A stretch of 40,000 bases of DNA from Nitzschia sp. pyKryTriq1 (taxonomy: Eukaryota; Bacillariophyta; Bacillariophyceae; Bacillariales; Bacillariaceae), in assembly GCA_956465555.1 (NCBI GenBank), contig OY101126.1:1-40000 (forward strand). Direction: 5' to 3'. The position numbers and the translations under genes were made by a program. The notes under the pieces are model-generated. The model did not search any database and was not told the DNA's origin. It was given only the letters and a program-made list of their open reading frames with translations. This document shows positions 18,903 to 38,570 of the stretch, piece after piece. Positions within the stretch are counted from its first letter, which is position 1, and every line of letters begins with the position of its first letter.

Positions 18903-20179
18903 GATGTTATGATGATGTTGACGATGATGTTATGATGATGATGATCCTGGCGAGTAGTAGTCACGATATCGAAAATCATCAGCAGCAGTTATTTTTGTTC
19001 TTACTTCATCATAGAGTCAACAATCTACAAAGATAAACAACAAGAACAAAACCAAATAGTGGTACTCTACCTTCTCGTTGATTCTTCCCGTTGGTTTTGT
19101 TCGACGAAAATCAATAATTATGATGATGATGATGATGATGATGATCGGAAAATAAGCAATGCGATTTCTCGTTTTGTGTGCTTTGATGTTGAGCACGCAC
19201 TTTTAGTTTCTTGTGGTTGTTGCTTTTCTATCCTCGCAGCCAGCAAAGCGAAGCGTGAAGGTGGTGGAAGCAGCATGCATGCTGCATGCAGCTTCATGTA
19301 CTCGAACAGTACAGTAGTTCACGTACTACTAAGAAGATGCAGAAGCAGGTCTCCTCCTTCCTCCTTCTTGATGATTGGATGCCATGCCAGCAGATGGCCC
19401 CGCCGACGAGCCGCCCGCCGAAAACATATCTTTCCGACTTTTGTTGGATTTGGCAACTCCAAATGTCGAAAGTCACAGATAGACAGACAGTAGCGTCAGC
19501 TGTGTCAGTGTCAGCTTGGTTCTGTGTTCCTCCTCTGCTGTACTGTTGGTGTGTTTGTCTGGTGGTGGTTTTGGCGGCCGTCCTCGTGTGGCTGTGTGAG
19601 TGCTTTTTGTTGTTGTCACCCGCTACTACATCTGCTCATGATTCTTTCCACGAAGAATGCTTTTGTTTGTGTTAGCATGGATCGCAAACAAGAAGAACAG
19701 CATCATATAATATCATCTCGCTTCGTCCTTCCTCGCCGGCCGTGTGCTCCTTTTGTGGATATTGTAGTAGACTATTACAATAGATCGCGGCAGGATAAGA
19801 GGAGCGAGGATGAGAAGAATCGTCGTCACCAGAAGGCGAACACGAATAGTTTAGGTGCTTCGAACAATAATTATAGGCGAATGTCGCCAGCTCGATTCTA
19901 CTTCGACGTCATCCGTGGTGCTTCCTTCGCTCCGTGCGACCTCCTCCAAACAGGGTCCGTCCGTCCGCCTCTACCAATAATCATCATCCCCGTATCTTCG
20001 TCGCTCCGTGGATGAACGCACATGCCCCCCACGTACCGATATCCTCCCCCATCGATCTTGTCCATTCTATCGGTGTACTGTTTCATCAATATCATCATCA
20101 TCATCATCATCGTCAACAACATCGACCACAATCCTTTCACACCCGTACTATACATCTTTCCCATCGTATAAGAATAACG
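18903..20179. other. Divergent intergenic region upstream of two genes
   Basis: 1.28 kb between the secreted repeat-protein gene and the DUF3054-like gene, which are divergent. It contains ATGATG triplet runs (18901-18945, 19119-19146, 20091-20112) and a palindromic CATGCATGCTGCATGCAG cluster at 19275-19292. Frames open between 19059 and 20015 have low-complexity or frameshift-like composition and are not called. It should contain both promoters. Confidence 0.45.
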
Positions 20180-21229
20180 ATGATGATGATGATGATGATG
20201 ATGGTATTGATGATGATTCGACGACGACTAATGTTATCTTCAAAGCCAGCATCGCTCCAGGCCTGCAAGATGTGGATTGTGATGCTGCTGCTGGTCTTGC
20301 TGTTATTCTTGGCGCCGACGGAACACAATCGTCATCGGGATGATCATACTGAATTCGGATCCTGCTCGACTACTACTACTGCTAGTAGTAGTACTACTAC
20401 CACTTGTAGTGTTAGCGTCGGCGTCGCGTCTTTCCTTGGTGTTTCTGCCCTCGGCACTCAAAAGATAGGTCGTTATTATTCTTACTCCACAAGAAGAAGT
20501 GCCTCTTCATTCAGTGGCAATCGCAACCGCGACCGCAACCGCAAGAACCCACTCTTGTCATCATCCACAGCATCATTAGCACTTACCACGCCTCTGCTCA
20601 CAGAAAACTCGATCAACAACAGGCAGCAGCAGAATATGGCAATACAACAACAACAACAACAACAACGCCAAGGACAAGCTGGACGAGGACAGGCTAGTAG
20701 TACCTCCACCATTCTATTTGCCACCAACAAGGCGAACAACAACTACAATGAAGATGACGGGGATGAAGATGGTGATGACGATTATGAGCAGTCGTCCTCC
20801 TCCTCTAGTATTCCTTCCTCACCATTGGATCGACCCGTCTTGGCAATCCTTGATACCATTATGCTCCTTGTCTTTGCGGCTGTCGGCAAGGCGTCGCATA
20901 GCTCGGTCGATGGATATGGATTGCTCGATGTACTACTGGCCGTTGCCCAAACGGCAGCACCATTTCTCTTGAGTTGGTTCTTGGTAGCACCACTCTTGGG
21001 TGGTTATACGCCCATGGCAACGAGTGCGGATTGGAAACAATCGACGATTGCAACTACCAAAGCATGGATCGTCGCAGTACCACTGGGATGTCTCTTGAGA
21101 GGAATTGTCAAGGGATACATGCCTCCTCTACCCTTTGTCATTGTCACTTTGATTGCCACGTTCGTCCTCTTGGTCGGTGGAAGACTGTTGTATACTACGG
21201 CGGCTGAATTATATGTCGAGCTATTTTGA
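20180..21229 (+). CDS. DUF3054-like integral membrane protein with N-terminal targeting extension
   Basis: 349 residues if started at the ATG run at 20180 (eight Met codons followed by VLMMIRRRL). The frame is open to 19934, and an ATG at 20012 is also possible, so the start is uncertain. The hydrophobic segment MWIVMLLLVLLLFLA (about residues 30-44) looks like a signal anchor or signal peptide. Residues 45-215 are Thr/Ser, Asn/Arg and Gln tracts plus an acidic NEDDGDEDGDDDYE stretch. From about 218 to 345 lies a four-helix membrane domain (VLAILDTIMLLVFAAVGKASH, FLLSWFLVAPLLGGY, WIVAVPLGCLLRGIVKG, PFVIVTLIATFVLLVGGRLLY) whose order and motifs match the DUF3054 family of bacteria and cyanobacteria. 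Function of that family is unknown. A presequence on a cyanobacterial-type domain suggests a plastid membrane, which is inferred. Convergent with the gene ending at 21896. Confidence 0.75.
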   Translation: MMMMMMMMVLMMIRRRLMLSSKPASLQACKMWIVMLLLVLLLFLAPTEHNRHRDDHTEFGSCSTTTTASSSTTTTCSVSVGVASFLGVSALGTQKIGRYYSYSTRRSASSFSGNRNRDRNRKNPLLSSSTASLALTTPLLTENSINNRQQQNMAIQQQQQQQRQGQAGRGQASSTSTILFATNKANNNYNEDDGDEDGDDDYEQSSSSSSIPSSPLDRPVLAILDTIMLLVFAAVGKASHSSVDGYGLLDVLLAVAQTAAPFLLSWFLVAPLLGGYTPMATSADWKQSTIATTKAWIVAVPLGCLLRGIVKGYMPPLPFVIVTLIATFVLLVGGRLLYTTAAELYVELF

Positions 21230-21895
21230 GAGAAGCCAAGTAGTACTAGAGCAGAGCACTTCGTCGCCTTCAGGCCGAGCTAGTTAGTAGAATTCCAACC
21301 GAAAGCGTCAATCTACAGTAGTAATGTACTGTAATAAGCAGCCCACGTTACTATATGGAAAATGTCCGTACAGCAACAACAAGTTGTGTGCTCTGCTACT
21401 CTAGCAGAGAAGAGAAGAGCAGGAGGACATGCAACAACAACAAGCAACATGACATCATGGCGTCGCTCTTGCTGTTTTGATTCGGAATCATCAAGGATGG
21501 CTTGTTCTTCCCGCATAAATTACCAATCCATCCCAACGCAACGAATCATCTTAAACAACAACGACACGATGTTGGACGGGAGAAGAAGAATCAATCAATC
21601 AATCATATTACATATTACATCTCGATTCAATCGATCGGGCGGAAGTAGTAGGACTGCTGCATCGAAAGAAACTGGGCAGGCGCGGCTTCACGTCAAGTTC
21701 ATCTACTATCTACTTCTTCTTTATGATGGAATGAAGAATCCACAGTACGTATGATGCTCATCTTGTCTTGTTATTATGACTGAAATGATATTATTTATTG
21801 TTACACTAGTTTTATAACGACAAACGACGGCAATGTCGGCGCGTTTCTTCCAGGTACGATGCACTGAAATGATATTATTTATTGTTACACTAGTT
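21230..21895. other. Convergent intergenic region with duplicated gene end
   Basis: 666 bp between two convergent stops. CTAG-type sequence (GTAGTACTAGAGC, CTAGTTAGTAG) follows the plus-strand stop at once. The right part is one copy of an 84-bp tandem duplication of the neighbouring gene's 3' end. No independent gene is seen. Confidence 0.5.
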
Positions 21896-21946
21896 TTATA
21901 ACGACAAACGACGGCAATGTCGGCGCGTTTCTTCCAGGTACGATGC
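21779..21946. repeat. 84-bp tandem duplication covering the 3' end of a gene
   Basis: Units 21779-21862 and 21863-21946 are identical. On the minus strand the right unit holds the last codons of the gene (ETRRHCRRLSL), its TAA stop at 21896-21898 and the first 3' untranslated bases. The left unit repeats all of that downstream of the stop, where it is not translated. Confidence 0.93.
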
Positions 21947-23020
21947 AATTTCTTTGTAATCCTCTTCCCCCCTTCTTTCGGCCTCACGTCTCGGGTGCAT
22001 GGTTTGGATTTGAGACTGGAAGCAAAGACCTTCATCATCATAGTGTCCCAACCTACGCTGCACTTCCTGTTCTGCCAAGACAGCGTCCCAATTATCAAGA
22101 CGAGAGTACGAAACATTGCAATCCTTTGAAAAATGTTCCAAGCCTCGTAAGCAATCTTCCTGCTCGTCCCCAGCCGCATGATTCTCCTTCTTTCTCTTAT
22201 CGGAGACCATATTCCGGAGGGACTTTTTCTTCATCTTCTTGGTACTATTACTATGGTGCGTGTTGTTGCTGGTGGTGGTGTCGTCGGTACAAAAAGTCAG
22301 TCCTCGCTCCTTTTCTTCCTCGGCTCGCCGTACTAGTTCCAAAGACCGTCGACGGATCGCTTTGTATTCTGGTTCTTGAAACCAGAGTCGCTCGGGCTTG
22401 TGCGCAAGTGATCTCACTGGCGGTACAGGCTTGACACGAACTTTTTCGTCAAAGGTGATGGAAGCTCGTCGGACCACCGGCTCATCGCGACCCGGTAACT
22501 TGACTAAAATCTCGCGGCCACTGAGTGACGATCTTCGTGATGTGGTGCTGTTGCAGCCTTCCCCATACGATGACGTTGTTTTCAACGAGCTTCGTCTACA
22601 TGATTTGACCTCTCGAAGTGACGTAGAGGCAATCAAACGAGGCCGCTCTGACGACTTGACACAGCTTCCAGCATGGTTTGAAACGTCGAGATCGTCCTCC
22701 GACGATGAATCTTCGGCCGGCGCATCGGGAAAGAAATTGAGATCCGAATCGGAGCATGTGAATTCTGGTGGTCGGGACGAACGGTAGCGTCTTCTCTCGC
22801 CACGTTGGAACTTGCTCTTGTATTTCTTCTTTGTAGCAATATCGGGATATGCATCTCCATACCCATACTCTGGTTCTGCTGCAGGCGTGTTTATCTTCTT
22901 GTTTTCTTCATCAACCTCTGTACTACTGAGATTGTTCATTACCGAAATGGGGACGAGGTCGTCTTCGTTTTCAAAAGAGAACGATGATTCATCAACTGTA
23001 TTGTCTCGATTAGGAATCAT
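21896..23020 (-). CDS. YGYGD / RGLE / EQ family protein, member 1
   Basis: 374 residues from the ATG at 23020, single exon. Motifs in order: YGYGDAYPD (52-60); RRSS sites (142-145, 162-165); LPGRDEPVVRRASITFDE (175-192) followed by a VRVKPVPPV strand; LWFQEPEYKAIRRRS (212-226) leading into a charged helix; CLRGLE (290-295); WDAVLAEQEVQ (311-321); a helix rich in Arg/Glu (344-367); and a C-terminal RRLSL (370-374). The same order occurs in the genes at 30681-32150 and, as two modules, at 33909-36758. No enzyme motif, membrane segment or signal peptide is present, so it is probably cytosolic or nuclear. Five RRxS motifs suggest basophilic-kinase (PKA- or CaMK-like) phosphorylation. The function is unknown to me. 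Its 3' end is tandemly duplicated. Confidence 0.82.
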   Translation of the reverse strand: MIPNRDNTVDESSFSFENEDDLVPISVMNNLSSTEVDEENKKINTPAAEPEYGYGDAYPDIATKKKYKSKFQRGERRRYRSSRPPEFTCSDSDLNFFPDAPAEDSSSEDDLDVSNHAGSCVKSSERPRLIASTSLREVKSCRRSSLKTTSSYGEGCNSTTSRRSSLSGREILVKLPGRDEPVVRRASITFDEKVRVKPVPPVRSLAHKPERLWFQEPEYKAIRRRSLELVRRAEEEKERGLTFCTDDTTTSNNTHHSNSTKKMKKKSLRNMVSDKRKKENHAAGDEQEDCLRGLEHFSKDCNVSYSRLDNWDAVLAEQEVQRRLGHYDDEGLCFQSQIQTMHPRREAERRGEEDYKEIASYLEETRRHCRRLSL

Positions 23021-23229
23021 GTTTGCCTACTCGGTTTGGACTTTAAAGGAATCAATATTGTGAGGAGAGAGAAAGAGAGCCAACGAGAACATTCGATGAA
23101 GCGATGATGATAGATGAATTATTGCAGAAATCGGGGTCGACGATCCCTGGATCGCCTTGCGAACGCGAACCGAATTTCGAAAGGCACATATCTAATCGAC
23201 GACCAATGCAAAATCACACATTATTATAT

Positions 23230-23265
23230 AGAGGTTGTGCCAGTTCTAGAGGTTGTGCCAGTTCT
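23230..23265. repeat. 18-bp exact tandem repeat
   Basis: Two adjacent identical copies of AGAGGTTGTGCCAGTTCT. Confidence 0.95.
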
Positions 23266-23994
23266 CCAGAAGCCTCGGAACACCATCTGTTCTTTTTTTT
23301 ACTAGCGAACCTGACAAAGAAGTGAGTTTACGACTATTAGTAGTACTACTGGAGCGCATAAGCCTTTTTATGAGACTTCTACTACGTTAGATTTAGGAGG
23401 GGAGACGACGACCGAATAAGGCTTATTTCTTGAATCGAAGTGCTATCATGAGAACGCTGTTTGGGACGATAATAATATGGATTGTTGTTGCAAAAATATA
23501 AAACCATACTACTACGAAGTAAAAGCTCATTGGGACTACTGGAATGACGGAGAGCATAGTACCGGTATATGATGATTCGACGAGTCTACTACTACTAGTA
23601 GCTCTACTAAGCTAAAGCAGCGAAAAAGTGCACTCTTTTCACCCGTCAGCCGGGATCATCCTCAGCGCTATCTGCACTTCTACGGAGACGATGGAACCTA
23701 GTCCTGTGCGTGCAGCCTTCGTCTAGTTCGCTTGCCTATGCATTAGTAGTAGTAGTGCTACTAGAGAGTGCTGAATCATGTCCTTCGATCTACTACTAGC
23801 AATAGCTACTACTACAATGTAGTAGTACTAGAGCTGCGACCAGTCGAAGAGAGAAACAAGAAGACCATCGAACTAATATCAACGGTGGCTTGTTGTTCTG
23901 TTGATTTCTTAGTAGAAGTATCATCATGCATGACGATGATGCTCAATAACTATTACGCGCATCACCCTGCATGCTACTACTACTAGTAGTAGCG

Positions 23995-24040
23995 AGAATG
24001 TCTATTTCTCTACTAGATAGAGTAGAGATATAGACATTCT
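23995..24040. other. Near-perfect hairpin, 20-bp arms, 6-nt loop
   Basis: Left arm 23995-24014 (AGAATGTCTATTTCTCTACT) and right arm 24021-24040 (AGTAGAGATATAGACATTCT) are inverted repeats with one mismatch in 20, separated by AGATAG. It lies in intergenic DNA about 970 bp upstream of the family-member-1 start and 400 bp past the RING stop. It could be a stem-loop in an untranslated region, a small-RNA precursor or a MITE remnant; the sequence alone does not decide. Confidence 0.85.
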
Positions 24041-24335
24041 GGAAAGATACCGAAAATTTAGGGGTACTACTAGCTTCTAGCTAGACGTTACTTCCCAAAC
24101 TCCCGGTACCATGGAGAGGGAGAGTTCAGATCGGTCGATTTACGATGTTGCTTTAGTAGAATCGCACAGTTGTGGAAAGTATGTCTATACTACTAGCTGG
24201 TAGTTGTTTTTGGAGTGTGTGTTTCGTTTCATTTCATTTCGTTTCGTTTCTTTGTTATAAGTAATACAAGGAAGCGGATTGCTGTTCCATGGCCAAAATG
24301 GCTGACAGTTCAGCCACAAGCTCTTCTGCTGTCAC

Positions 24336-24337
24336 GG

Positions 24338-24373
<36 letters not shown>

Positions 24374-24411
24374 CGGTGGCGGCGGTGGCGGTGGCGGTGG
24401 CGGTGGCGGAA
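24336..24411. repeat. CGG/GGTGGC triplet repeat
   Basis: About 25 triplets of GGC and GGT. On the minus strand they read GCC/ACC, giving poly-Ala and Ala-Thr in the frame that would extend the RING protein. It begins immediately beside the 25-bp duplication at the RING stop. Confidence 0.9.
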
Positions 24412-24412
24412 G

Positions 24413-24462
24413 AAGGATTTGACGAATGATAATGATCAAGGATTTGACGAATGATAATGATC
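24413..24462. repeat. 25-bp tandem duplication at the RING gene stop codon
   Basis: Exact units 24413-24437 and 24438-24462. The right unit is inside the coding sequence and the junction between units creates the TGA stop at 24436-24438. Since 25 is not a multiple of 3, the duplication shifts the frame. Confidence 0.95.
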
Positions 24463-26834
24463 TTCCTCATCGTAATCATCATCGTCGTCCAGCATCTCAG
24501 TTGTCATCATTGGATCCAAATGAACCAAATCATGGTCGCTGGCCCAATCCAGGGCCTTTAAAATATCCTCTTGATCATTTTGATCATTATCATCATTGTC
24601 GTCGTCGTCAGTGGCATCGACCGGTTGAAAGACCAATTCGATCGATGCCTCACTATTAGCTCTACGCTTGGTCATCGTCCTTCGTGTTTGTCGTTTGTCT
24701 TCTTCTTCTTCTTCTTGTGGATTTTCCAAATCTTTTCCTTCCTCTTCCCCCATAACAATTATACTCAAATCCTCTTGCAAAAAGGTTTGATCTGGACTGC
24801 CGTCGTTACTGCTGCGCTTGGTTTTTTTGTTTTTGTTTTTGTTGTTCTTGGAAGACGAGGAAGAACAAGAAGAGGAAGAGTTTCTTGTTTCGACAGTTTC
24901 TTGTGTTTCGGATCGATGCATCTGATACCGCGAAAGAAATCCTCGGAGCATCGTCGACATTGGTACTGTCGGCCTTGAAAGATGATTATTCGTCGTGGTA
25001 GTGCCGATCATGCTGGAGGATGATGATGATTCGCCTTCGTCGCAAGCATCCTTGACTTGCTTGGTGTGATTAGTAGAAGAAGTGGTAGTAGTAGTAGTCA
25101 GGGTCGATCCTCCTTGTTCTCCCTGATGGTGTCTTCGTCTCTTGTGTGGGATGGTTCGTTTTCCACTACTACTACTTTTCAAAGACGACTTTTTGGACAA
25201 TGAAGAGTCAACGAGACCAAATCCATAAAGAGTCACCAACCCTTCTTGGATGCAATAGTAAGATGTTGTGGTACGAGTCGCTCGTTCCTTGGCATAGGAA
25301 TTCAAGAGTTCATTCGAGACACGTTTGCTGCGAGTACCGGCAGAGGAAGAAGAAGAGGGCGTCGATGCTGATGCCGATGCTGATACTGATGATGTTGGCG
25401 AAGAAGTAGAGGTAGTAGAACCGTCGGCTACTTGGAGTTCCTGATCTTGCTCTTGCTCTTGTGCTTCTGCTTCTGCTTCTGCTTCTGCTTCTGCTTCTGC
25501 TTCTGCTTCTTGTGTTAGTCCTCTCTCCAGTACTTGAGCGGTTACTAGAGGTCGATCGACGGGAAGTACCACCTTTCGACAGCACGGACAAGCGACCCGC
25601 CGCAACAACCATTCTCGTATACACGAGTGGTGAAAGACATGTCCGCACTCGATATTGGTCGACCAGGATATCTTATCTCCCACACCAAAGGCTTCTAAAC
25701 AAATGGCACAACCCGGCTTGTCAATACTATTCAAAGAAGTATCGTCATCATCATCATCATCATCAACATCTGCTTCTTCTTCTTGATTTTGCTTTTCCTC
25801 CAATTCTGCGGATGATGTTGTGGACGATGGTGATAGTTGATTTTCTTCATCCGCCGCCGCCAAAGACGACGACTTGTCGCTACTACTAGTAGTAGTAGTA
25901 GTAGTAGTTGTAGTAGCAGCAGCAGCAGTCGTCGTCGTGTTCGAATCACTCTTTGGAATCGTGTTCATCATGGCAAAAGGGTCATCGTTGTTACTGGGTT
26001 GCTCTTGCTTGGCCGATTGTTTTTCGTCATCACTGTCGGGTCCAGCAGGGGCGAGCTTCTCCAGCAAAATGGCTGCCGTCAAGGTCAAGAAGGATGATTT
26101 ACTATTAGTAGTAGATGATGAGTAGGATGATGATGATGATGATGATTTTTTGGGAAGTGACAATATTAACGTCGAGTGGTGCTGGTTGGTAGGACCGGAC
26201 GATGAAGTGGAGGAGGATTGCTTCACATTTCGACAATATCGGTGCCGAATACAGTCGCAGACGGCATCGTGTGGTTGCACTCTCTATTGTTGTACGAGTA
26301 AAAGTAAGAGAACGAGCAAGAGAACAAGCAAAAGGATGAGGATGCTGTGAGCTAGCATAGTCCAATCTGCTGGGAATCGGATCGTGTCGGGTCCTTCCTT
26401 CCTTCCTTCGCACAGTATTTCTACTAGCTAGCTGCTACTAGCTAGAGCGTACGTACCTTTGTAATCAGCCATCCATCAATGGTGGCATATCGTCGATCAA
26501 TTTTAGCTTGTGGGACGGGCATTCTTCGTTTGATCATGTGAATCAATGGTGGAATAGTCACAAACATTAAAATAAGACAAAGCATGGCAATCAAGGCAAT
26601 CAAAATGGAAACGACGGCCATGTTTTGTTGCTGATGTTGTGTTTGTTGTTGATGTTGATGTTGGGCTTGACCAATTCCAGGATGAATCCATTCTTGTGGA
26701 TCAAAAAGGTCGGGTAGAATCGTATCCGAAGTATTAGTATTGGTCGTGTTGTCGTCGTTCCATGTTGGCGTCGTTGTCGTCATCAAAGTAGGTGCCAGAG
26801 TCGATAGGTCATGATCGTCAGCGTTTGACGTCAT
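24436..26834 (-). CDS. Membrane-anchored RING-H2 E3 ubiquitin ligase
   Basis: Two exons: 26834-26457 (126 codons, ATG at 26834) and 26283-24436. The 173-bp intron has donor AAAG/GTACGT and acceptor CAATAG/AGA. The joined protein has 741 residues. Residues 1-70 are Thr/Asp/Gln-rich and probably luminal. One transmembrane helix spans 72-95 (MAVVSILIALIAMLCLILMF). Next comes a conserved-looking juxtamembrane segment, RRYATIDGWLITK, spliced to RVQPHDAVCDC. The RING-H2 finger occupies about 318-361: C-A-I-C, then C-G-H and H-H-S-C, then C-P-C-C, an intact zinc-ligand set. The rest is Ser/Thr, acidic, Ala-Glu and Gln tracts. Such proteins transfer ubiquitin from an E2 to membrane or cytosolic substrates; the substrate is unknown. 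The exon 2 frame has no early ATG of its own, which supports the splice. The C-terminus appears truncated by a 25-bp duplication. Confidence 0.85.
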
Positions 26835-28075
26835 GATGTTGTGGTTGCTGGTCGTCCTATATGGTGTTGTTGAATATAGAATCCACCACGACGCCCACTA
26901 CTGCAGCCGCAGAAACCAGCCACAGAACCCCTTCCAAGTGTGTGTCGGATGGGAGAAATTCCGACTTTTTGTTTCTTCTTCCTTTTCTTCTTGTTCTCCT
27001 TTCGGCGCACACTCGATTCGTCCTCTCCGTACAGACAGTGGCTGCCAGTAATAGTACAATCAATCCACTGCTGCTAGCTGCTGGAATGGAGGCTGTCGTG
27101 GTGTAAGCAAGGTCGAAGCAGAAGTAAATGTTATTGTTGTGAAGGGAGGAAGAAAAAAAGAAAGAAGGTAGGCCCAAACACTGGAAGCCACCAATATCAT
27201 GATGATCATCGCATCAGCATCATCTATCTTTTCCTGCATCCGCGCGCACAAAACACATCTTCTTTTCTCGCTTCGTTCGCTCGTGTAGAAGAAGGCGGGA
27301 AACCGGTCCGCCTTTCATGTGGACGATACGCGTGCCCGCCGAATTTCCCCTGCTGACATTGTCGGATGGAGTGGTCGGCGTGTTTATGCAAGCCTACAAT
27401 CATGGATATAACATGTTGGGGTGCGCCCAAAATAAATACACGATCCAACCCGGGACCCTCCTTCTCAACGCTCGCAACGGAAAATGGAGTTGTCGCCTTG
27501 CGTGCGTGCGCGTTGCGACTCTTGTCCCGTGCGTGATGATGGTGTTTCGCAAGTCCCGTGTCACGCATACCAGTACGTTCTCTGGTAAGCAATAAAAACC
27601 GCGAGGGAATCACGCGATGGAAAAATACGTGCAGTGCATTTGTAGTACGCGAAGACAATCTTCCAACGCGTAAAATACTACTGTACACAAAAACCACGAG
27701 AAATTGACCCTCCACTACTCTAGTAGAGAGCTACCGGTAGACCTTGTCTACAATTGGAAGGTAGAGAAAACCCAATGCATACTACATTTATAGAATATGC
27801 CCGTTGTTTCCATCTGACAGTGTAGGCGGCAGTAGAGATTTTTTCCATATATACCATACATCTATGCAATAGGAAACATCCATGCAATAAGTCCATACAA
27901 TAGATCAATGATTATCATTAATGGTTGATATTGAACAATATAGATGCTACTTTGTGCCCTTGCAGTGGTGTAACGAGCCGCCAACAGCTAAGACAGCATC
28001 GGTCGGATTAGTCAATACATTGACGGACGACGTCCAAACGTTAAACACAGGGGGCCATTTTGCTCTGCCCTCCTT

Positions 28076-28354
28076 TCAAACCCCTCCCCCCAATGTAGTC
28101 GAAGACCTGCGGGCTGACGTACGGACGTAGGTAAAGACGGGGGGAACATTATCGGGGATTCTCTCCTTTGGTTCCCTAGAATTGATGACGTGCATCGACG
28201 TCCTATCAGACGCCTGAGACATGTCGTAGACGTCCGATAAATCTAGTTTCAGACATCGGAACTCCGTTCTAGTCGGATTCCATTCCGACGAGCTCCAGAA
28301 TGATGAAGTCTTCCTTCGGGGGATGAAGACAAAACAACAGACGTGGTCCGACAT
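28076..28354 (-). pseudogene. Possible retroelement relic (protease-like stretch)
   Basis: A 92-codon minus-strand frame followed by sequence with scattered stops down to about 27921. It contains SDRTSMHVINSREPK followed by RIPDNVPPV, loosely like the D-x-G-A-S-x-H-V-x-N segment around the aspartic protease of Ty1/copia-type polyproteins, but with Arg-Thr where Gly-Ala would be. No long terminal repeats, reverse transcriptase or integrase motifs are visible nearby. This is a weak call from one motif. Confidence 0.2.
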
Positions 28355-29928
28355 ATCGATGAATTAGTTGCAGTTTACTTTTTACCCCTTAGTTTGTTTC
28401 AATTGCGAGGTCACTATTTTGCCTTGGGACTGATAGTTGCTGGAATCAGCGAATCAAGCCTGAAACATTGTCATGTCGCAAAACAAGTCTCAGGTCTCTC
28501 CGTGAGACATCGCAAACGTCGTCATCATCAAAAGCAGAAAGATGACAGTGAGTGACGCACGCACGAAGGAAGATGGTTTTGACCATGACGTGAGTTGTCG
28601 CAAGTCTCTCTACTACCGGTACTGTTACAGTAAAAGCAGGAACATTGATCAGGTGTTATGCTATTCATACACGGAAGTGCAAGATACTTAGGTTCGGTAT
28701 TCGGTATGCTAGAGTACTGTACTAGTAGTTGTTGTTCGAGCAGATACAAGTACTTCAGAAATGAGATGACGGGATCATGAGATGAGATGCGAGATGACGA
28801 CGACGACAAATAATGAAGTCGAAGCGGTGGCCATACTGAATAATGCTTGATAGGCCAGATCGATACGTTACAACAAGATATCCATCGAGACAAGTCAAGC
28901 CAGGCAGGTTGTTACCCTACGTACTACTACTACTACTACTACTACTCTTTCTTCGTGGTCGTAAATAAGGCTACAGTTATCATCGTTCGAGAATGCAACA
29001 CGGCTTGTACCGTCTACCGGTACCGGTATATACCGCCTACTGGTATTACACCTGATACGAGTTGGCCACAACCTTGACTATGTTATCATGAGACGAAAGA
29101 CAACAAACGCTCAATGAATAAATGAATATCTGCGGCGCTGCTGTTGCTGTTGCTCGACCATCACGCAAGTGGAAAAGGGAAGAAGAAGACGACGAAGAAG
29201 AAGAAGAAGAAAGTGCGGCCAACCATCCGTTCTTCTTGATCGATGCTGCCTCGATCGAGGACGTTCTACATGACGTGATACTATATCGACCGAGATACTA
29301 CTTGTACGATCATGTAACATGAGATTTTACGTGATGGTATTTTATGTGGTGCAAAGTGATGAGATGTGATGTGACCTTGCGCCGGCTCTACGGGTCGCGC
29401 TCTCAAGGACGATCCTACCTGATCGGTACGATCTCGCAAGCAAGGATCAGAAACAACAAGTGGCATCAGAAGCACCAACAGCACCTACAGTAGTAGTAGA
29501 GTAGTAGTACAACAACAACAACAGCGTCGCAGCTGGAACGAAGCCGATCATACCGAGTGATGCTGCTGCTGCTGCAAGAAGTCGTTCAAGCAAATACACT
29601 AGCGAGTCCGTCAAGGTAGCAGCTAAATTAGACAGTGCACTTTTTCGCTGCTTTACGATACTAGAGTAGTAGTAGTAGTAGAGCTGCTCGAAGTCAAATC
29701 GAATCAAATTATGATGACAACAATAATAATAATGATAACACTACGTGTGGTGGTGCTAGTTGAATGAACAATCAATCCTTCTCCGAACCTGATGTCGTCA
29801 TCTCCTCCGACGTTGGTGGGAGTGAGTGGTGAGGGCGTGCTTCAAGCAAGCAACCCTCGTCGTCAACTAGTAGTCTACCACCACCATACTACAGCAGACA
29901 GTACTACTGACTGTACCACCGAGGATGA

Positions 29929-29961
<33 letters not shown>

Positions 29962-30064
29962 AGACGTCGTGTGTACTACTTTTACTTCTGGAACCGAGCG
30001 GGGAGATCGACCGGTAGTACGATGTGGTCATCTTCTTCTTCTTCTCTTCCGTACAACGAAGGAG

Positions 30065-30325
30065 CAATAATGGTTTATAATACCGAGAGTAAATAAGTCT
30101 ATTTTTATACCGCTGTCACGCCACGCTATGCGACGGTTGACCCGCGGTCCGGGCTCCCGAAGGAGCGAGGTACCTTATCGTTATTTACTCACAATTTTTG
30201 TTTGTACTTTTTGTTTGTTTGTTTCCTGGGGGAATTATTATTCGGTGTTTCTGGAGGTTTGGGGGTTATTTGATGTTTCTGTGGTTTCTGTGGGGGGAGG
30301 CCCCCTTCAATAATGGTTTATAATA
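30065..30325. mobile_element. Candidate 225-bp insertion flanked by 18-bp direct repeats
   Basis: CAATAATGGTTTATAATA occurs at 30065-30082 and again at 30308-30325, enclosing 225 bp. Inside are a hairpin with CGAA loop on the plus strand (GCTCC/GGAGC near 30152-30165; TTCG loop on the minus strand), a GACC/GGTC hairpin beside it, a TTTG repeat (30198-30221) and a terminal GGGGG-AGG-CCCCC inverted repeat. The direct repeats look like a target-site duplication of the length made by LINE-type retrotransposition, so a SINE-like element is possible. No box A/B promoter or poly-A tail was found. Confidence 0.4.
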
Positions 30326-30680
30326 AGTTACTCGTGTGCTGGAATGCGGACTGTGTACCATGTATCTATGTGTGTATATGTGTATGTGTGCATGTATATA
30401 AATATGTACTAGTAGTTATGTGTTTCAAAATGGTGTGCTCGTAAGAACAAAACTGGTAATAAGAAGCAAGAATGTGTTCGTGAAACAGAAGAACAATAAT
30501 GACAATGAAGACAATGATGATGGTGATGGTGGTGGGGGTGGTGGAACATGAAGATTTGTGGTGGTGGTTGTTCTAGTACGGCTGCTGCTTCTGCTGCTGC
30601 CGCCAGTGCAGAAGTACTTGTTGACTAGTACTGCTTGTTTTCGTCGTTGGTTCGTTGGTTGGTTGGTTGGTTGGCTGGTT

Positions 30681-32150
30681 TTACATGGACACGCGACGAG
30701 ACATCATCGTCATCATCATCATGCTGCGACGAGTCTCTTCGAGGTATTCGGCCACATCTTGTGCATCTTGTTCTCCACGAAGTGCGGCCTCGCGTTTCGA
30801 GCCCATGGATTTGACCATGTAGTCGTACGCTAGACCTTCCTCATTATAAAAGAACGAAGTGCCGCCGCCGCCGCCGCCGCTGCCGCGTTGAATATCTTGT
30901 TGATCCAAAACGGAATCCCATGCCTTTAATCGTGCTAGCTTGAATCGAGCATGATTGTGTTTCATCAACTTTTCCAATCCGCGAAGACAAAAGTTGCTGT
31001 TGTTGCTGTTGTTGTTGTTGGTGCTGGTCTTTGTTTTCTTCGTTTCCTCTTCTTTTTGCGTATTCTTGTTCTTGTTCTTTTGGTGATGATGATGAGGAGA
31101 AAAGATGGTGCGACGTTGTTTTTCGTTTCGACGTTCTCCTCGTCGTAGTTCTAGTAGTTCCTGTAGTTCCTGTTCTTGTTCGGCACGTCTCACTAATTCC
31201 ATCGACTCTCGACGCATCGCCTTGTAGTCCTCCTTTTGAAACCATAGCTGCTGCTGGAAGGCTGCTCGATCACCACCACCACCACCACCACCACCACTAC
31301 AACCATTATCATTATCATTATCATCCATCATCCTCATGAGATCTTGTACCGGTGCCACCATTTTGATCGTGACGGATTCATGAAAGGTCAACGAGGCACG
31401 ACGAGTCACTGGAGTCGATTGACCGGGAAGCATGACTTGAAATTCACGGATTCCACATTGAATCGAGGCGCGACGAGGAGTAGTAGTAGTAGTAGTACTA
31501 CGACGGCCTCCAACAATATCATCGTCATACGAAGAAGCAGTAGAAGTGGTGGTGGTGGCTTTCATGGAACTTCGACGAGGAGTGGTTGTTGTACTAGCAG
31601 CAGCAGCAGCAGCAGCAGCAGTAGTGCTGCTGGGGGTGGTGGTGGTGCTGCTGCTGGAGGTGCAGCTCTTTTTCCTGCGCATGGGAGCGACCGCCGTACT
31701 ACTACCTGTAGTAGTAGTAACGTTGGGAACGGCAGCAGCATCATTCTTGTAGCCATAGTAGTGCTCTGTAACTGCTGCTACGGATGCCTCGTCCTCCTGG
31801 GCGTTGTTGTTCTTGTTGGAAGCGACATCTGGCGCCCCATCTCCGTAGCCATACTCGTCCTCCTGGGCGTTGTTGTTCTTGTTGGAAGCGACATCTGGCG
31901 CCCCATCTCCGTAGCCATACAGATCTTTCAAGAAATCAGCAGCAGCAGCAGCAGCAGCATCATGATGATCATCCTCGCTGGTGCTGCTGCTGCTGCTGCT
32001 GCTGGCGGTGGTGGGGGTGGCGGTGGGGATGGTTCTATGGCCGATGCAGTACTTCTTTCGGCCAAACCTTGTCGCTACGGTGGCTGGCGAAGCTGGCTCA
32101 TCCAAGTGATGCTGCTGAAACTGATTAGTTCTTGATAGTACTCGTACCAT
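30681..32150 (-). CDS. YGYGD / RGLE / EQ family protein, member 2
   Basis: 489 residues from the ATG at 32150 to the TAA at 30681-30683, single exon. It is a clear paralogue of the gene at 21896-23020, with the same motifs in order: YGYGDGAPD twice (78-86, 100-108) in a duplicated 22-residue unit; RRSS and RRAS sites (192-195, 226-229); LPGQSTPVTRRASLTFHE (241-258); LWFQKEDYKAMRRES (302-316); CLRGLE (388-393); WDSVLDQQDIQ (411-421); a helix with REAALRGEQDAQDVAEYLEETRR (453-475); and a C-terminal RRVSM. Between motifs are Ser, Thr, Ala, Gly, Asn and His homopolymers missing from member 1. No signal peptide or membrane helix, so probably cytosolic or nuclear. Function unknown. Divergent from family member 3, with 1.76 kb between their starts. 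Confidence 0.82.
   Translation of the reverse strand: MVRVLSRTNQFQQHHLDEPASPATVATRFGRKKYCIGHRTIPTATPTTASSSSSSSTSEDDHHDAAAAAAADFLKDLYGYGDGAPDVASNKNNNAQEDEYGYGDGAPDVASNKNNNAQEDEASVAAVTEHYYGYKNDAAAVPNVTTTTGSSTAVAPMRRKKSCTSSSSTTTTPSSTTAAAAAAAASTTTTPRRSSMKATTTTSTASSYDDDIVGGRRSTTTTTTPRRASIQCGIREFQVMLPGQSTPVTRRASLTFHESVTIKMVAPVQDLMRMMDDNDNDNGCSGGGGGGGGDRAAFQQQLWFQKEDYKAMRRESMELVRRAEQEQELQELLELRRGERRNEKQRRTIFSPHHHHQKNKNKNTQKEEETKKTKTSTNNNNSNNSNFCLRGLEKLMKHNHARFKLARLKAWDSVLDQQDIQRGSGGGGGGTSFFYNEEGLAYDYMVKSMGSKREAALRGEQDAQDVAEYLEETRRSMMMMTMMSRRVSM
31788..31919. repeat. 66-bp in-frame tandem duplication
   Basis: Units 31788-31853 and 31854-31919 are identical and encode two 22-residue copies of the segment containing YGYGDGAPD and an Asn/Asp/Glu tail. 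A third degenerate trace (YYGY) lies just downstream in the protein. The duplicate preserves the reading frame. Confidence 0.95.
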
Positions 32151-33908
32151 GATGCTGATGATGGTGATGGTGATTGATGCTTTGCGTTGTTGTTGTTCTT
32201 GCGGTATGTAGTAGTGTGTGGTGCTAAAGTTCTTTGCGTTCCGTCTTGCGTTATTTGTTTAATATGACAAGAGAGAGAGAGCGAGAGAGAGAGAGTGGAA
32301 GATAAAAAGTCTCATTCTGACGACAGAGACAACAAGAAAACCAACAAGAGCATCGAACTATAACTCAGCATCATCGAAGAAAGAACAAAGAGAGCCCCGG
32401 CCGATCGATCGCGACCTTCGCCTTGCGCCTTATTTTATTATTGTTATGTTATTGTTTCGCGCTCGGTTCCCGCCATGTTCACAGAACTTTGGCGTTTGTC
32501 TTTTTGTGCCCCCTTCGCTTTTCTCCTCGAGTTCTACTACCGGTACGTACCGGGTACCGGTACAGTACCAGTACAGGTACTCTGGTAGCTACTCTACTTC
32601 GTGGAGTACCGGTAGAGAGTTCTGCACGGTCCGTCCCCAGACTGGTGACTGGTGACTGTTACTGTACGTTCGTACTTGTGCAGCACAGCTTGCTGGCAGA
32701 ATCGTCAATCATTCATCACCAGTCATCTATCCATGGATGCATGAATGACTGCATGAATGACTGCTTGTCAATTAAAAAGCGGTCCACAGATAGCGCGTTT
32801 CTGAAGTAGTAGCGCACGTGTGTCATGATGTTCCCCACGTACAATCATCATCTATTCATTCGTTTCTGTCAGATTATTTTTGTCAACGTCAGTCATCATC
32901 TACCGTTAGTATCGACCATCATCATCATAATATTTTTTTATCCATCCTTCCTCGCTACAGCAGTACTTGCACTAGCTCCGGCCCCATCCAAGCAAGGCAA
33001 GCGAAGTATCTACAGAACTACTACTTGTACAAGTTCGGTTTCTGATCCTCGCCTTCCGGGCGCTGGCGTTGAAGTCTCGAATTCTCCGGGCCCTGGCGTT
33101 GAAGTCTCGAATTCTCCCTTCGCCTACTTCCTTCGAACTCTTATTATTGTATATGCCTGACATTTTCAAGTATAAAATGTCACCAATCCGAACTCTTGAA
33201 CATTTTTTTTATATAATATTCGTTACGCACGCACCGACCAAATAGTGCCTCCTCCGTCCAGAGAGAGAGGATTCAAAAGATTGAATACTACTTGGGCCTG
33301 ATGAGGCTTATAAGGGCTTAATCGTAAAGAAGTTTCCGGAAGGAAGAGTATGTGAATTCTGGTTCTTCATCAGGGGGAGGGGGGGGGGAGAATGTCTTTG
33401 ATAATGACAGTGGAAGTCGTACGTGCAAACTATACTACAATAACGGAACAAATAATAATAATTATGATGATTCTTCTTGAAGTGCGTAAAGCGCCATGAT
33501 CGATGATCGAGGGCCATCTGCTGCCACTGTGTGCGTGGCGAATTTAACCCAATCAATAATCATCCATCAAAGTCCCATCCTTTTATCCCATCAATCAAAA
33601 TCATCCATCCAAATAAGCAAGGGATCATGGCGAAGCGGCATTGATAAAAAGAAACCCACAAGAAAGAGAATTTCTACCACGCAAAAGCTTCACGTTCGTA
33701 TACAGTAGTTCCACTTTCTCTCTCGCAGCTCTCTTCGTTCCGCATTTTCTGTTGATATATGCTACTTCATTACTCTATTACTCTACTACTCTATACTCTT
33801 CTCTAAAAAGAAAGCGCCGCAAACAAACGAAAAGAGCAACCCCAACTGTCTTCTATCAGCAGCATAGGGGCAGCAGTAGCATAGGACGAGGAGCAGCACC
33901 ACCACAAT
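32151..33908. other. Divergent 1.76-kb region between family members 2 and 3
   Basis: Shared upstream region of two related genes. It contains a GA run (32270-32296), dense GTAC/ACCGGT palindromes (32536-32615), GACTGGTGACTGGTGACTG (32639-32657), ATGAATGACTGC tandem units (32741-32764), a 30-bp tandem repeat, and a poly-G stretch (33373-33388). A 111-codon frame at 32825-33160 has a hydrophobic N-terminus but runs through the 30-bp repeat and is not called. Confidence 0.45.
33055..33114. repeat. 30-bp tandem repeat
   Basis: Units 33055-33084 and 33085-33114 share TCCGGG, CTGGCGTTGAAGTCTCGA and ATTC, with one base difference (GCGCTGG against GCCCTGG). Confidence 0.92.
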
Positions 33909-36758
33909 ATGCCTCCTTCTTTCAGCAGTACACGTACCGGCAGCATTATGGAAGAAGACATGATGCTGTGTAATAGCAGTAGCAGTAGCAGTACTGGTAT
34001 TACCACTACTACTACTAGTACCATTATCAATGCTATGAATCCCCAATGCCCGCCGCAACAGGAACAGGAACAGGAACAGGAACAGGGAGGACACCAGGAA
34101 CAAGAAGAAATAAGTCCAGCATCAGCAGGCCGAACAACAACTCCAAGTCCAGGAGGAGAAAGAGGACCAGATGATGATCAAGGCAGTAGTAGGGGCGACG
34201 AACATTCCGCTCCAGCGCATCAAGCAGCAGCAGCAGCAGGAGCAGCAGCCGAAGCCTCGTCACTCTCATCTTCCAAGAATGATCATATTACTGGAAACCA
34301 GACGAAGGAGAAGACTTCTACAGGTGGTAATAATACTACTAGTACCGGTGGAACAAGACAAAGACGAAGACAAAGTCGACAACAACAACGTCGGAGACCG
34401 GCCGTGCATTGGGGTGTGGCCAAGTTATATCCCATTACTCCCCTATCCGAATTTGCTCCCAGTCGGATACGAGATACATGGTTTCAACCCTCGGAATATG
34501 CCGAAATATCCAATGAAAATAACAAAATGATTGAATGGATCAGCAGCAGCAAGCACAACAACCACAACAACAACAACAACAGTTACAGCAACCACAATGT
34601 TGGAAGCAGTAATGGCAATGGCGAGGATGGTACCGGCGGTACAACTACTCTGGAAGAATCATCATCATCGCCGCCAGCTTCATCATCTCCTACGTCATCA
34701 TCTCCAACTTTATCATCTACTGATACGAATACTGCTGATACTACTAATGCTACGACTACTACAAGAGGATTGGAACACATGACACGAGAAGAAATTACAC
34801 GACGAAAACAGTTGCGGGATGAGGCTGTAGATGCGGTATTGGACGAACAAGATCGACAGTACGAACAAGAACAACGGGCGACTCCGGAAATGGAAAAGGT
34901 GGCATCCGTCTATGCTCCCATTTCCTTACGGGCCTACCAGATTGCCGTACGATTCGGAAAGCAAGATGAACTTGCCGCGCAAGCCATTTATCAACATCAT
35001 CATGATGATCATCATCATCATCATCATGATGAGAATAACAAGAACAACAAGAACAAGAACAACAAGAATGGTAGTGGTGGTGGTGGTAGCCTTCGAGCGC
35101 GAGGACGTCAACAACAACAACGACAACAATCCCACCATCACCAGCACCACCACCAACAACCACAACCACAGAGGATCCAACAAGTTCGCTTTTCTCCACA
35201 GGTTCACGTCCAAACGGGCTTGCCCTTGAACGAATATACTGCGGATGAAATGACTCGTTCATGGTATCACAATGACGATATTCAAGGCTTCAAGATCAAA
35301 AGCAAACAACTCATCAAGACACTTCTCTCGTTACAATCATCAACATCATCATCATCATCCAAAATGATAACAACCACTCCCATTCTTTTGGATGAAAGTG
35401 CCCGAGAAGAAGGTCAGGAGCAGCAGCAGCAACAGCAGCAGCAACAGCAAGGTAGTTCCTTTTGTATTCGAGGCTTGGAACCCTATCTCATCACTTCCAA
35501 AGTCGGTACGCGCAAACAGAATGTCAACAAGACATGGAATGCCGTACTCGATGAACAAGATCGGCAAGACCAACTATTGGGTAGAAGGAACAGCGGCGAC
35601 GGCGACGGCGCAAGTGGAGAAGGGGGACGAAGCGACACTGCAAATGCTGCAAGCAGAAGTACTACTACTAGTAGTACCATGGCGGCTCTGACGGCCCATC
35701 TGGCCCAAGCCTCACGGGAGAGTTCCTTGGAATGTTCCAAGGTCGCCCAACGACTGGCCAAACAAGATGAACGGTTTGTCCGACGATATTTACAAAAGGA
35801 AGTCCAACAATGGAACATCAAGTTTAATAGGTCTTGTGTTGTGGTGCGGCCCAAGAACAAGAAAGAACATTCCAGCAGAGCAGCATCACTTTCACAAGAA
35901 CAAGAACAACAGCAACAGCAGCAACAACAGACAAGACGGGGAAGCAACAGCAATCCTCCTCTCACTTCTACTACTACTAGTAGTACTCGACTCGATTACC
36001 GTCGCGATTCTTTGTCAGTGGCCGGAAGGGGCAAATCTTGTTCTGCCGCAGCTGCAGTTACTAATAGCAACGCCAAACGCGGTGGTGGCAACGATAGCGA
36101 TGACCAAGACGAAGAAAATGACTATGACTATGAAGATGATAAGGTCCCCGCTTGCATTACTACCACCATCGAACTACAAGAACAACGTCAAGACCACCAA
36201 GATACGAAGACTAACAAAAAGACCTCGTCCTCGTCTTGCAAATTGTCTGCCCCCGCCTCTCCTCATCCACTAAAAACACCATCGTCGTCGTGCAACAACG
36301 ACATCATGATTATCAAAGACTCGATCCGAGGACACCACCACAAGCACCACCACGACCACCACCAGCAGCAGCAAACAGCAGTAAGTTCTTTTTCTCACGC
36401 GAGCAGCACCAAACTCCTATTGGCCTCGCTGTCTTCGTTGGATGAACAGGATGTTGTTGATGTTGATGTTGATGGTGGTTTGGAAGTGGAAACGCCACGA
36501 CGCATCGCTCCCACTACTCCCAGCACCACCGCTTCGGAATCATCCTCCACGACTGCTGCTGCTGCTGCTGCTGCTGGAGAAGGATCATCAGTGTTGTTCT
36601 TGTCCTCGAGTGAGAAAGATGAAGGCGACGATAATGACGACGCTGATGACGACGAGAATGACGACGAAGAGGATTCATCGTCGGGAGCCTTTCAAATGCT
36701 CAAGACCATGGCGACGGATACCGCAAAGCATGCCGTTCGTGGAAACACTAACTACTAG
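33909..36758 (+). CDS. RGLE / EQ family protein, member 3, with two tandem modules
   Basis: 949 residues, ATG at 33909, stop TAG at 36756. It carries two copies of the motif set seen in the genes at 21896 and 30681. Module A: VHWGVAKLYPITPLSEF (about 165), WFQPSEY (about 191), TRGLEHM (about 285), AVDAVLDEQDRQ (about 306), and a helix ending in RFGKQDELAAQAIY (about 345). Module B: VRFSPQVHVQTGLPLNEYTADE (about 425), WYHNDDI (about 452), CIRGLE (about 518), WNAVLDEQDRQ (about 542), and RLAKQDERFVRRYL (about 615). A long disordered tail follows, with Gln, Ser/Thr, His and Asp/Glu tracts and RRxS sites (YRRDSL, TRRGS). It lacks the YGYGD and LPG..RRAS parts. No signal peptide or catalytic motif. 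Function unknown. The homopolymers make it much longer than its relatives. Confidence 0.82.
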   Translation: MPPSFSSTRTGSIMEEDMMLCNSSSSSSTGITTTTTSTIINAMNPQCPPQQEQEQEQEQGGHQEQEEISPASAGRTTTPSPGGERGPDDDQGSSRGDEHSAPAHQAAAAAGAAAEASSLSSSKNDHITGNQTKEKTSTGGNNTTSTGGTRQRRRQSRQQQRRRPAVHWGVAKLYPITPLSEFAPSRIRDTWFQPSEYAEISNENNKMIEWISSSKHNNHNNNNNSYSNHNVGSSNGNGEDGTGGTTTLEESSSSPPASSSPTSSSPTLSSTDTNTADTTNATTTTRGLEHMTREEITRRKQLRDEAVDAVLDEQDRQYEQEQRATPEMEKVASVYAPISLRAYQIAVRFGKQDELAAQAIYQHHHDDHHHHHHDENNKNNKNKNNKNGSGGGGSLRARGRQQQQRQQSHHHQHHHQQPQPQRIQQVRFSPQVHVQTGLPLNEYTADEMTRSWYHNDDIQGFKIKSKQLIKTLLSLQSSTSSSSSKMITTTPILLDESAREEGQEQQQQQQQQQQGSSFCIRGLEPYLITSKVGTRKQNVNKTWNAVLDEQDRQDQLLGRRNSGDGDGASGEGGRSDTANAASRSTTTSSTMAALTAHLAQASRESSLECSKVAQRLAKQDERFVRRYLQKEVQQWNIKFNRSCVVVRPKNKKEHSSRAASLSQEQEQQQQQQQQTRRGSNSNPPLTSTTTSSTRLDYRRDSLSVAGRGKSCSAAAAVTNSNAKRGGGNDSDDQDEENDYDYEDDKVPACITTTIELQEQRQDHQDTKTNKKTSSSSCKLSAPASPHPLKTPSSSCNNDIMIIKDSIRGHHHKHHHDHHQQQQTAVSSFSHASSTKLLLASLSSLDEQDVVDVDVDGGLEVETPRRIAPTTPSTTASESSSTTAAAAAAAGEGSSVLFLSSSEKDEGDDNDDADDDENDDEEDSSSGAFQMLKTMATDTAKHAVRGNTNY

Positions 36759-37621: not shown

Positions 37622-38570
37622 TTAGTCAAAGTAGACAAGATTCTCCATCATTTCACGAAAGGAGTCGCCCAATTTGGGTTTTCCCTCGGCCGTTGGATGG
37701 AAGAGTGTCGTTGTGGGCGACGTCCCCATGTCCTTTTCTTGATCTTTTGCGGGTTCTTCTTCTTCTTCTTCAGCAGGAGTCGCCGTTGGTTGTACAACCA
37801 CGGGAATCTTCTCGCTAGGCTTGTGAAACTTTCCGTCTTCGCTTCGGTTCCAAGGCCACTATTACGTAGTACAAGTACAAGTACAAGTAGTACGAACAAG
37901 GAACAAGGATAGAAAAGAACAACAGGCAGGGTAGTGAGCAAAGAGATGATGCTGCTGTTACCATCCATGATCCACAAGCAATTCCTAACACTAGTAGTAC
38001 TGGACTTACCGCTCGATCATCCTTGGCACATTCCACGGTAATATCCCACGAACTGAGCAATCCACGAAAATTCTTGGTCTCGGGATCAATGACAATCGCA
38101 TGATGATTTTGATTATGTTCCAGAATCTTGGCCGCTTCATCCCGGCTCATGTGTTCCGTGCAAGTCGCAAGAAGATCTTCCGTCGTCATGATTTCTTTCA
38201 CGGGACGATCCAATAGCAGACCTGCATTGTACGCCTTGACGAGATCTGTTTTAGTTACAATGCCCACTGAAAAAAGAAGAAGAAATGGTAATAGAAGAAG
38301 TATATTAGAAGAAGACGATGACGAAGACGAAGAAAAGAAAGTCATATATTGACATCATTCGCAACCGAGGAGGCGAAAGAAATAAAGATAGAAAGAAAGA
38401 AAGAAAGAACGTGTTACGTACGTACCTGGAATCGGATAGGTACCCAACGCAAGAATGACCACGGCTCCGACTTTGTGTTTGAGCATGAGATCCATGACAT
38501 GACGGATCGTATCCGAAGGTCTGGCCGAAATGACCTGGTCGGCTGGTTTCATAAATCCTCCTACTCTCAT
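37622..38570 (-). CDS. Tandem CBS-domain protein
   Basis: Three exons: 38570-38426, 38266-38010, 37858-37622. Introns of 159 and 151 bp have GTACGT and GTAAGT donors and TTTTTTCAG and AATAG acceptors. The joined protein has 212 residues and ends YFD-TAA. Two CBS motifs form one Bateman module: residues 5-57 (VISARPSDTIRHVMDLML...GAVVIL...GIVTKTDLV) and about 69-125 (PVKEIM, EHMSRDEAAKILEHNQNHHAIVID, FRGLLSSWDITVEC). Such pairs bind adenine nucleotides or S-adenosylmethionine and regulate partners. The spacing between the first strand and GIVTKTDL is typical once intron 1 is removed, which supports the model. The C-terminal 80 residues are acidic, Pro-rich and disordered. No signal peptide is evident (MRVGGFMKPADQV), so cytosolic or mitochondrial, unresolved. 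Stand-alone regulator; the partner is unknown. Confidence 0.88.

Follow-up and report, generated by a model that had tools for sequence, protein, structure and literature searches.

The RVxF motif, through which regulators dock on protein phosphatase 1 (PP1), is given in the available text of PMC5874294 as [K/R][K/R][V/I]{P}[F/W]. That text and the accessible part of PMC5005033 describe a Ser or Thr at x as a target of Aurora B, with phosphorylation lowering PP1 affinity; examples are Ser-60 of KNL1 and RepoMan in the former, and Ki-67 (Ser-507) and RepoMan (Thr-394) in the latter, where the phosphomimetic forms bind PP1 about 25-30-fold more weakly. Here we analysed a stretch of 40,000 bases (the window), which is C12:1-40000 (contig OY101126.1) of the assembly of the diatom Nitzschia sp. 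pyKryTriq1 (40,651,789 bases, 20 contigs). Three of its genes, P0002, P0003 and P0001, are members of an 'RGLE family' that is spread over the genome and numbers well over a hundred diatom proteins. The best explanation of this family, to which we assign a probability of roughly 0.55 on sequence comparisons, is an N-terminal RVxF-like PP1-docking peptide joined to an undescribed helical RGLE domain, with docking probably phospho-switched.

Four groups of described PP1 regulators invite comparison. KNL1 (CASC5; PDB entry 6czo) contains RRVSFADTIKV, which can be aligned to the krkrVsFservevr consensus of the family with both the Ser at x and the hydrophobic pair matching, and its x-Ser is the Aurora B switch described in the available text of PMC5874294; the similarity, however, covers only about 19 residues, and a SILK motif is present in 1 of 115 members of the diatom family. 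PPP1R15A and PPP1R15B (GADD34 and CReP; 4xpn, 4v0u-4v0x) have KVRFSEKVTV with the same V.F...V.V spacing, but a longer profile stays within the motif, and no Pfam PP1-regulator family was found at an expectation value (E) <=0.01 among 122 members (from 128 non-window frames, with six short or weak pieces omitted). A segment of NIPP1 (3v4y) is matched at E 0.35, but not by the whole-domain profile. Ki-67 and RepoMan share RVSF/RVTF with a kinase-controlled x residue (accessible part of PMC5005033), but were unmatched by the peptide profile.

The RGLE family in the window and across the genome

All three open reading frames (ORFs) are present where the initial annotation had placed them, P0002 and P0003 on the minus strand and P0001 on the plus strand. 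Their parts are as follows.

21896..23020, minus: P0002, RGLE-family type A, 374 amino acids, intron-free ORF
22841..22867, minus: YGYGDAYPD, N-terminal type-A subfamily motif of P0002
22433..22471, minus: RRASITFDEKVRV, RVxF-like position of P0002 (I-T-F) with a PKA-type RRxS site preceding it; no K/R at -1/-2
22355..22387, minus: LWFQEPEYKAI of P0002, where the first predicted helix begins
22136..22153, minus: CLRGLE of P0002
22058..22090, minus: WDAVLAEQEVQ of P0002, inside the second predicted helix
21899..21991, minus: charged C-terminal helix of P0002, with RRLSL at its end
30681..32150, minus: P0003, RGLE-family type A, 489 amino acids, sister of P0002
31827..31919, minus: YGYGDGAPD, tandem pair in P0003
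31365..31403, minus: RRASLTFHESVTI, RVxF-like position of P0003 (L-T-F) with an RRxS site; no K/R at -1/-2
31215..31247, minus: LWFQKEDYKAM of P0003
30972..30989, minus: CLRGLE of P0003
30888..30920, minus: WDSVLDQQDIQ of P0003
30684..30797, minus: charged C-terminal stretch of P0003, with RRVSM at its end
33909..36758, plus: P0001, 949 amino acids, low-complexity sequence with two RGLE modules
34389..35006, plus: P0001 module 1 (PAVHW; TWFQPSEYAEI; TRGLE; VDAVLDEQDRQ; C-terminal stretch)
35166..35801, plus: P0001 module 2 (QQVRFSPQVHV; SWYHNDDIQGF; CIRGLE; WNAVLDEQDRQ; C-terminal stretch)

P0002 and P0003 are clear paralogues, with 86 of 247 aligned columns identical (35%; 115 bits, E 9e-33), and both contain YGYGD..PD and LPG...PV.RRAS.TF. 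P0001 is far more distant: in pairwise alignments only the surroundings of RGLE and VLDEQ match (best E 0.002 for P0002 and 4e-4 for P0003). The initial annotation had read a common ordered module in all three proteins, carried twice by P0001, and leave-out profiles bear this out. These were built from a 21-row alignment (A1) excluding the rows of the protein under test, and scored against 2000 shuffles per protein, of which 1,486 to 1,737 of each 2000 returned a score by the program. The profile of the 17 non-window rows recovers P0002 with 106.6 bits and P0003 with 77.3 (best shuffles 10.3 and 11.8), and that of the 19 other rows finds both modules of P0001 with 120.3 bits (best shuffle 8.9). 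Linkers vary while the motifs are kept, as had also been proposed. Of the modules, P0001 module 1 (PAVHWGVAKL) has only a weak form of the V.F...V.V strand that had been described for all, its profile match beginning at model position 12.

The module is not confined to three neighbouring genes and 15 kb, as originally thought, but occurs genome-wide. With an iterated profile, 131 open frames contain the domain; they lie in 118 of the 121 sequences examined (the window and 120 fetched regions). L026, L126 and L128 have no domain by this profile. Six-frame searches of the genome returned 33 matches at E<=10 with P0002 as query and 125 with a more distant member, and the six-codon pattern C.RGLE occurs 129 times, versus 65 for the pattern read backward. 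Because the frame pairs L057, L114 and L076 are probably pieces of one gene each, and two other matches are weak (27 and 16 bits), we count at least 125 genes, any pseudogenes included. The count is a lower bound, since two further queries raised candidate places beyond the 131-frame set (e.g., C3:163485, C3:161621, C11:1026918, C6:2788227, C1:4687424 and C17:158203). Similar hypothetical proteins presumably exist in other diatoms; the family was traced here in this genome alone.

Members are clustered, with 28 neighbouring pairs within 15 kb versus 6.2 expected (maximum 17 in 2000 random placements), or 24 pairs after dropping the three same-gene pairs and one pair that includes the 27-bit match. 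Separately, two pairs of members on C1 and C3 have identical motif-region peptides within each pair: L070 (C1:4491500) with L080 (C3:3356000), and L063 (C1:4622100) with L062 (C3:3479400). L070 and L063 lie about 131 kb apart and L080 and L062 123 kb apart, and order and strand agree between the two contigs, a pattern that points to recent duplication of a segment longer than 120 kb.

The anatomy of the domain was taken from the 115 of 131 members with one near-complete domain; among the 16 excluded are the three ORFs of the window, in which linkers interrupt the profile match. A basic or Ser-rich lead is followed by V/I-x-F/W (V or I 93%, F or W 99%), hydrophobic residues at +6 and +8 (counted from V), [DE][YFLM][ST]..E, W[YF]..[ED][ED] (W 90%), a helix and G. 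C.RGLE (R 96, G 99, L 85, E 88%) has an R/K-rich stretch after it, A-V-L-x-E-Q-x-x-Q is conserved at V 90, Q 95 and Q 89%, and the end of the domain reads, in order, G..D, I-A..Y..S, A (98%) and D (96%). The RGLE domain is probably a C-terminal, helical unit of about 100 residues whose last helix holds the near-invariant A and D. AlphaFold, given the four window modules, predicts three helices (43-65, 132-150 and 162-200 of the P0002 stretch) and no regular structure at V.F, with a predicted TM-score (pTM) of 0.19; two helices have a block predicted local distance difference test score (pLDDT) of 79-88 and the middle one 54-67.

In a FastTree phylogeny of 119 domains over 132 profile columns (the P0003 row without its first 25), P0002 and P0003 are sisters (support 0.949). 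Together with L009-L015 they form a type-A clade, supported at 0.852 for all nine and at 0.957 without L015, while the two P0001 modules are placed elsewhere and apart from each other, at support values that are low to moderate. The initial annotation had taken the genes at 30.7 and 33.9 kb for local duplicates; because the tree pairs P0003 with P0002 and not with the head-to-head P0001, local duplication is instead ascribed to the 21.9 and 30.7 kb genes. YGYGD repeats recur in several type-A members, and RR.S stands directly before [VIL].F in 8 of 9 (the exception is L014). Upstream, [RK]S[ISAVT][LMI][KR] is enriched (11 of 115 members versus a shuffle mean of 1.0 and maximum of 5), and 8 of these 11 are type A. 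Just downstream of the P0002 stop, at 21815-21877 on the minus strand, a 21-codon stretch is 81% identical to the P0002 C-terminus (E 0.087) and is perhaps a small tandem duplication of the gene end.

The initial annotation knew of no named domain with this pattern, which held in Pfam, NCBIfam and the PDB as searched. None of the three window proteins scored over a curated Pfam or NCBIfam cut-off; their sole Pfam match at E<=1 was DUF3885 (E 0.018, below cut-off), which we rejected. The 21 rows of A1 matched 19 Pfam families at E<=1, one row each except CENP-N (two), the best being DAB2P_C (E 0.0075), and the 122 members matched five families at E<=0.01, one member each, the best being FAM47 (4.9e-5); none was retained. 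Several long frames are cut at the ends of the fetched regions, and fused domains further out lie outside the reach of the latter scan. Whole P0002 or a whole-domain profile found nothing in the PDB at E<=10. Viral contigs (three single-protein queries) and prokaryote genomes (one) yielded no relatives, where such queries reach close relatives only. No account of a diatom RGLE family, RVxF motif or PP1 regulator was found in the literature, judged by title and with preprints and most subscription journals outside the search. The RGLE domain is thus undescribed within the databases and literature searched.

An RVxF-like motif at the start of the domain

At the family level, the positional preferences at V.F resemble those of the RVxF motif. 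The strict form [RK]x0-1[VI]{FIMYDP}[FW] is found at the V.F place in 72 of 113 aligned members (window ORFs not among them), while the same peptides shuffled have it there in 0.26% and anywhere in the peptide in 5.4%. The doubled-basic form occurs in 37 of 113 and [KR]x0-1[VI]{P}[FW] in 74 of 113, and only 5 of 113 have x in the disfavoured set FIMYDP. The 11,018 residues that these ORFs have outside the domain contain 3 strict motifs. At -1/-2, K/R make up 53% (18% at -5 to -12) and acidic residues 1-2%; with V as 0, hydrophobic residues stand at +6 in 55% and at +8 in 68%.

Profile searches of 177,635 PDB sequences point in the same direction. The test set comprised all usable 23-residue peptides, from 111 of 115 members (108 unique; two were gapped in the motif and two too short). 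The 108-peptide profile gave nine matches at E<=10, of which seven (by gene, 4 of 6) are PP1 regulators: GADD34 (4xpn, E 0.032), KNL1/CASC5 (6czo, 0.078), PPP1R15B (4v0v, 4v0x, 4v0w and 4v0u, 0.18-0.54) and NIPP1 (3v4y, 0.35). PP1 chains are in the entry chain listings of 4xpn, 3v4y and the four 4v0 entries, and 6czo presumably contains one as well. A profile of 46 hand-picked peptides ranked KNL1 first and GADD34 second of three matches, the third being an unrelated flagellar protein; PP1 regulators were absent from the controls, with 0 of 2 matches for the same 46 peptides reversed and 0 of 3 for 60 23-mers from the RGLE region.

A candidate partner is encoded in the genome. The PP1-type N-terminal family is over cut-off at three places, and L131 encodes a PP1 that shares 244 of 310 residues with 1s70_A. 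At the 10 positions that form the RVxF groove, all of its residues are unchanged. As for the residue at x, it is Ser or Thr in 62 of 113 members, and in 46 of those a K/R stands two or three positions ahead of it. Type A has an RRAS- or RRTS-like site, resembling kemptide, directly in front of the motif.

Candidate PP1 docking and competing readings

If the motif is used as it is in described regulators, the N-terminal peptide would dock in the PP1 groove through RVxF plus the hydrophobic pair, and most members would recruit PP1, while the variable linkers and the RGLE domain may set where PP1 goes. A basophilic kinase phosphorylating x could release PP1, by analogy with Aurora B on KNL1, Ki-67 and RepoMan. 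For type A (P0002 and P0003), with RRAS immediately ahead of the motif and without the usual basic residue, the peptide may bind weakly, in one phosphorylation state only, or not at all. The initial annotation offered 'a scaffold with linear motifs', which is close to this conclusion because the first motif, at the family level, resembles the RVxF docking motif; what does not stand is a module local to three genes.

A number of results weigh against docking. The strict form fails in 41 of 113 members and in all four window copies (RRASITF, RRASLTF, RRRPAVHW and RIQQVRF), which have no K/R at -1/-2, and P0003 has L at the V/I position; the exact F...[VIL].[VIL] spacing is found in 34 of 113, and upstream SILK, [GS]IL[KR], is not enriched (the single occurrence compares with a shuffle mean of 0.46). 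Members are related, and the 113 peptides are not 113 independent events. In the PDB, no single match is significant (best E 0.032), two of the nine are unrelated (2m0a, 0.16; 8j07, 2.2), and a single member peptide as query found nothing. The AlphaFold model is poor at its pTM of 0.19. Homology with PPP1R15 or other described PP1 regulators outside the motif was also rejected: when 47 hand-picked members were profiled over 52 positions, GADD34 (4xpn) was the only such regulator matched, over the motif alone, at rank 12 of 21 and E 0.84. Such a loss of signal on lengthening is expected of a convergent short motif, not of homology.

Part of this would follow if V.F...V.V were the first strand of the RGLE fold, lying in its own core, with the RVxF likeness due to chance and the protein a general scaffold. 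We regard this as unlikely, at something over one chance in four. In its favour, the V.F stretch is no less conserved than other parts of the domain, its distance to the W[YF]..EE helix is similar in many members, the window copies lack the basic residues preferred by PP1, and the PDB E-values are individually weak. A core strand, however, need not favour K/R and exclude acids at -1/-2, nor take almost only F/W at one place and V/I/L at the other; seven PP1 regulators among nine matches are hard to obtain by chance; the model, at low confidence, has no strand at V.F; and P0003 carries an acidic and poly-G insert between V.F and the helix. A more radical view, that the ORFs are non-coding open frames in low-complexity DNA, appeals to the abundant simple repeats of the window and to the long frames also present on its opposite strand, but we hold it to be very improbable given an ordered domain in 131 frames at low identity, motifs kept while linkers change, and profile scores far above shuffles.

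A narrower reading is compatible with PP1 docking by the family: only the main branch docks, type A and P0001 having lost the ability, which we judge to fall somewhat short of an even chance. The strict motif is absent from the four window copies, the nine type-A members form one clade (0.852), and all seven of these outside the window also lack the strict form; yet [VILM].F is retained by all nine type-A members and exact F...V.[VI] by four of them (L009, L010, P0002 and P0003), and in eight of the nine basic residues lie one step further out. With comparable reserve, type A and P0001 could use their RRAS and RRSSMK sites and YGYGD repeats otherwise, e.g., as kinase substrates or phospho-reader sites, in line with the upstream [RK]S[ISAVT][LMI][KR] enrichment, 8 of 11 in type A. 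Docking is accordingly a weaker claim for the window copies than for the family, and we describe them as members of an undescribed family whose majority has an RVxF-like motif rather than file them as PP1 regulators.

Genomic setting and wider meaning

Positions 1-819 of the window are a telomere-like (CCCCAA)n array, i.e., TTGGGG, and the same pattern, among the matches listed, ends C2 and starts C3 (the latter with small breaks). Telomeres of T. pseudonana and P. tricornutum are given as TTAGGG, and those of Nitzschia inconspicua as mixed TTAGGGTTGGGG, in the available text of PMC8329260; the nearly uniform TTGGGG array looks like a further diatom variant. Because the window begins with this array, the RGLE gene cluster is probably subtelomeric. 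Other genes of the window, some of them Pfam matches, are given below.

4357-6831, minus: polysaccharide pyruvyl transferase (Pfam)
13833-14417, minus: trypsin (Pfam)
17112-18902, minus: protein in which a long internal repeat occurs twice (HLSVGHKDGNVARIYRSDGSIHGNVP...); Pfam gave nothing at E<=0.001
19934-21226, plus: DUF3054 (Pfam)
24439-26280, minus: RING-H2 finger protein, lying between the family genes, in a long stretch of low complexity
37818-38354, minus: CBS (Pfam)

In the genome as a whole, the silicon-transporter family has 8 matches over the Pfam cut-off, in keeping with a diatom.

More broadly, and tentatively, with the odds leaning slightly against it, well over a hundred diatom proteins that target PP1 may form a lineage-expanded superfamily of single ancestry, each pairing an RVxF(S/T) peptide with an RGLE domain and about half of them kinase-switchable. 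If so, one domain family would supply a large share of the cell's PP1 holoenzymes, in contrast to the usual picture of unrelated regulators that share a short motif. It is difficult to find a way into very large gene families whose function is unknown; in this case one partner (PP1) and one switch (the x of RVxF, or the preceding RRxS) are proposed for well over 100 genes, and if the proposal holds, PP1 regulation in this diatom would depend largely on one expanded family rather than on unrelated interactors.

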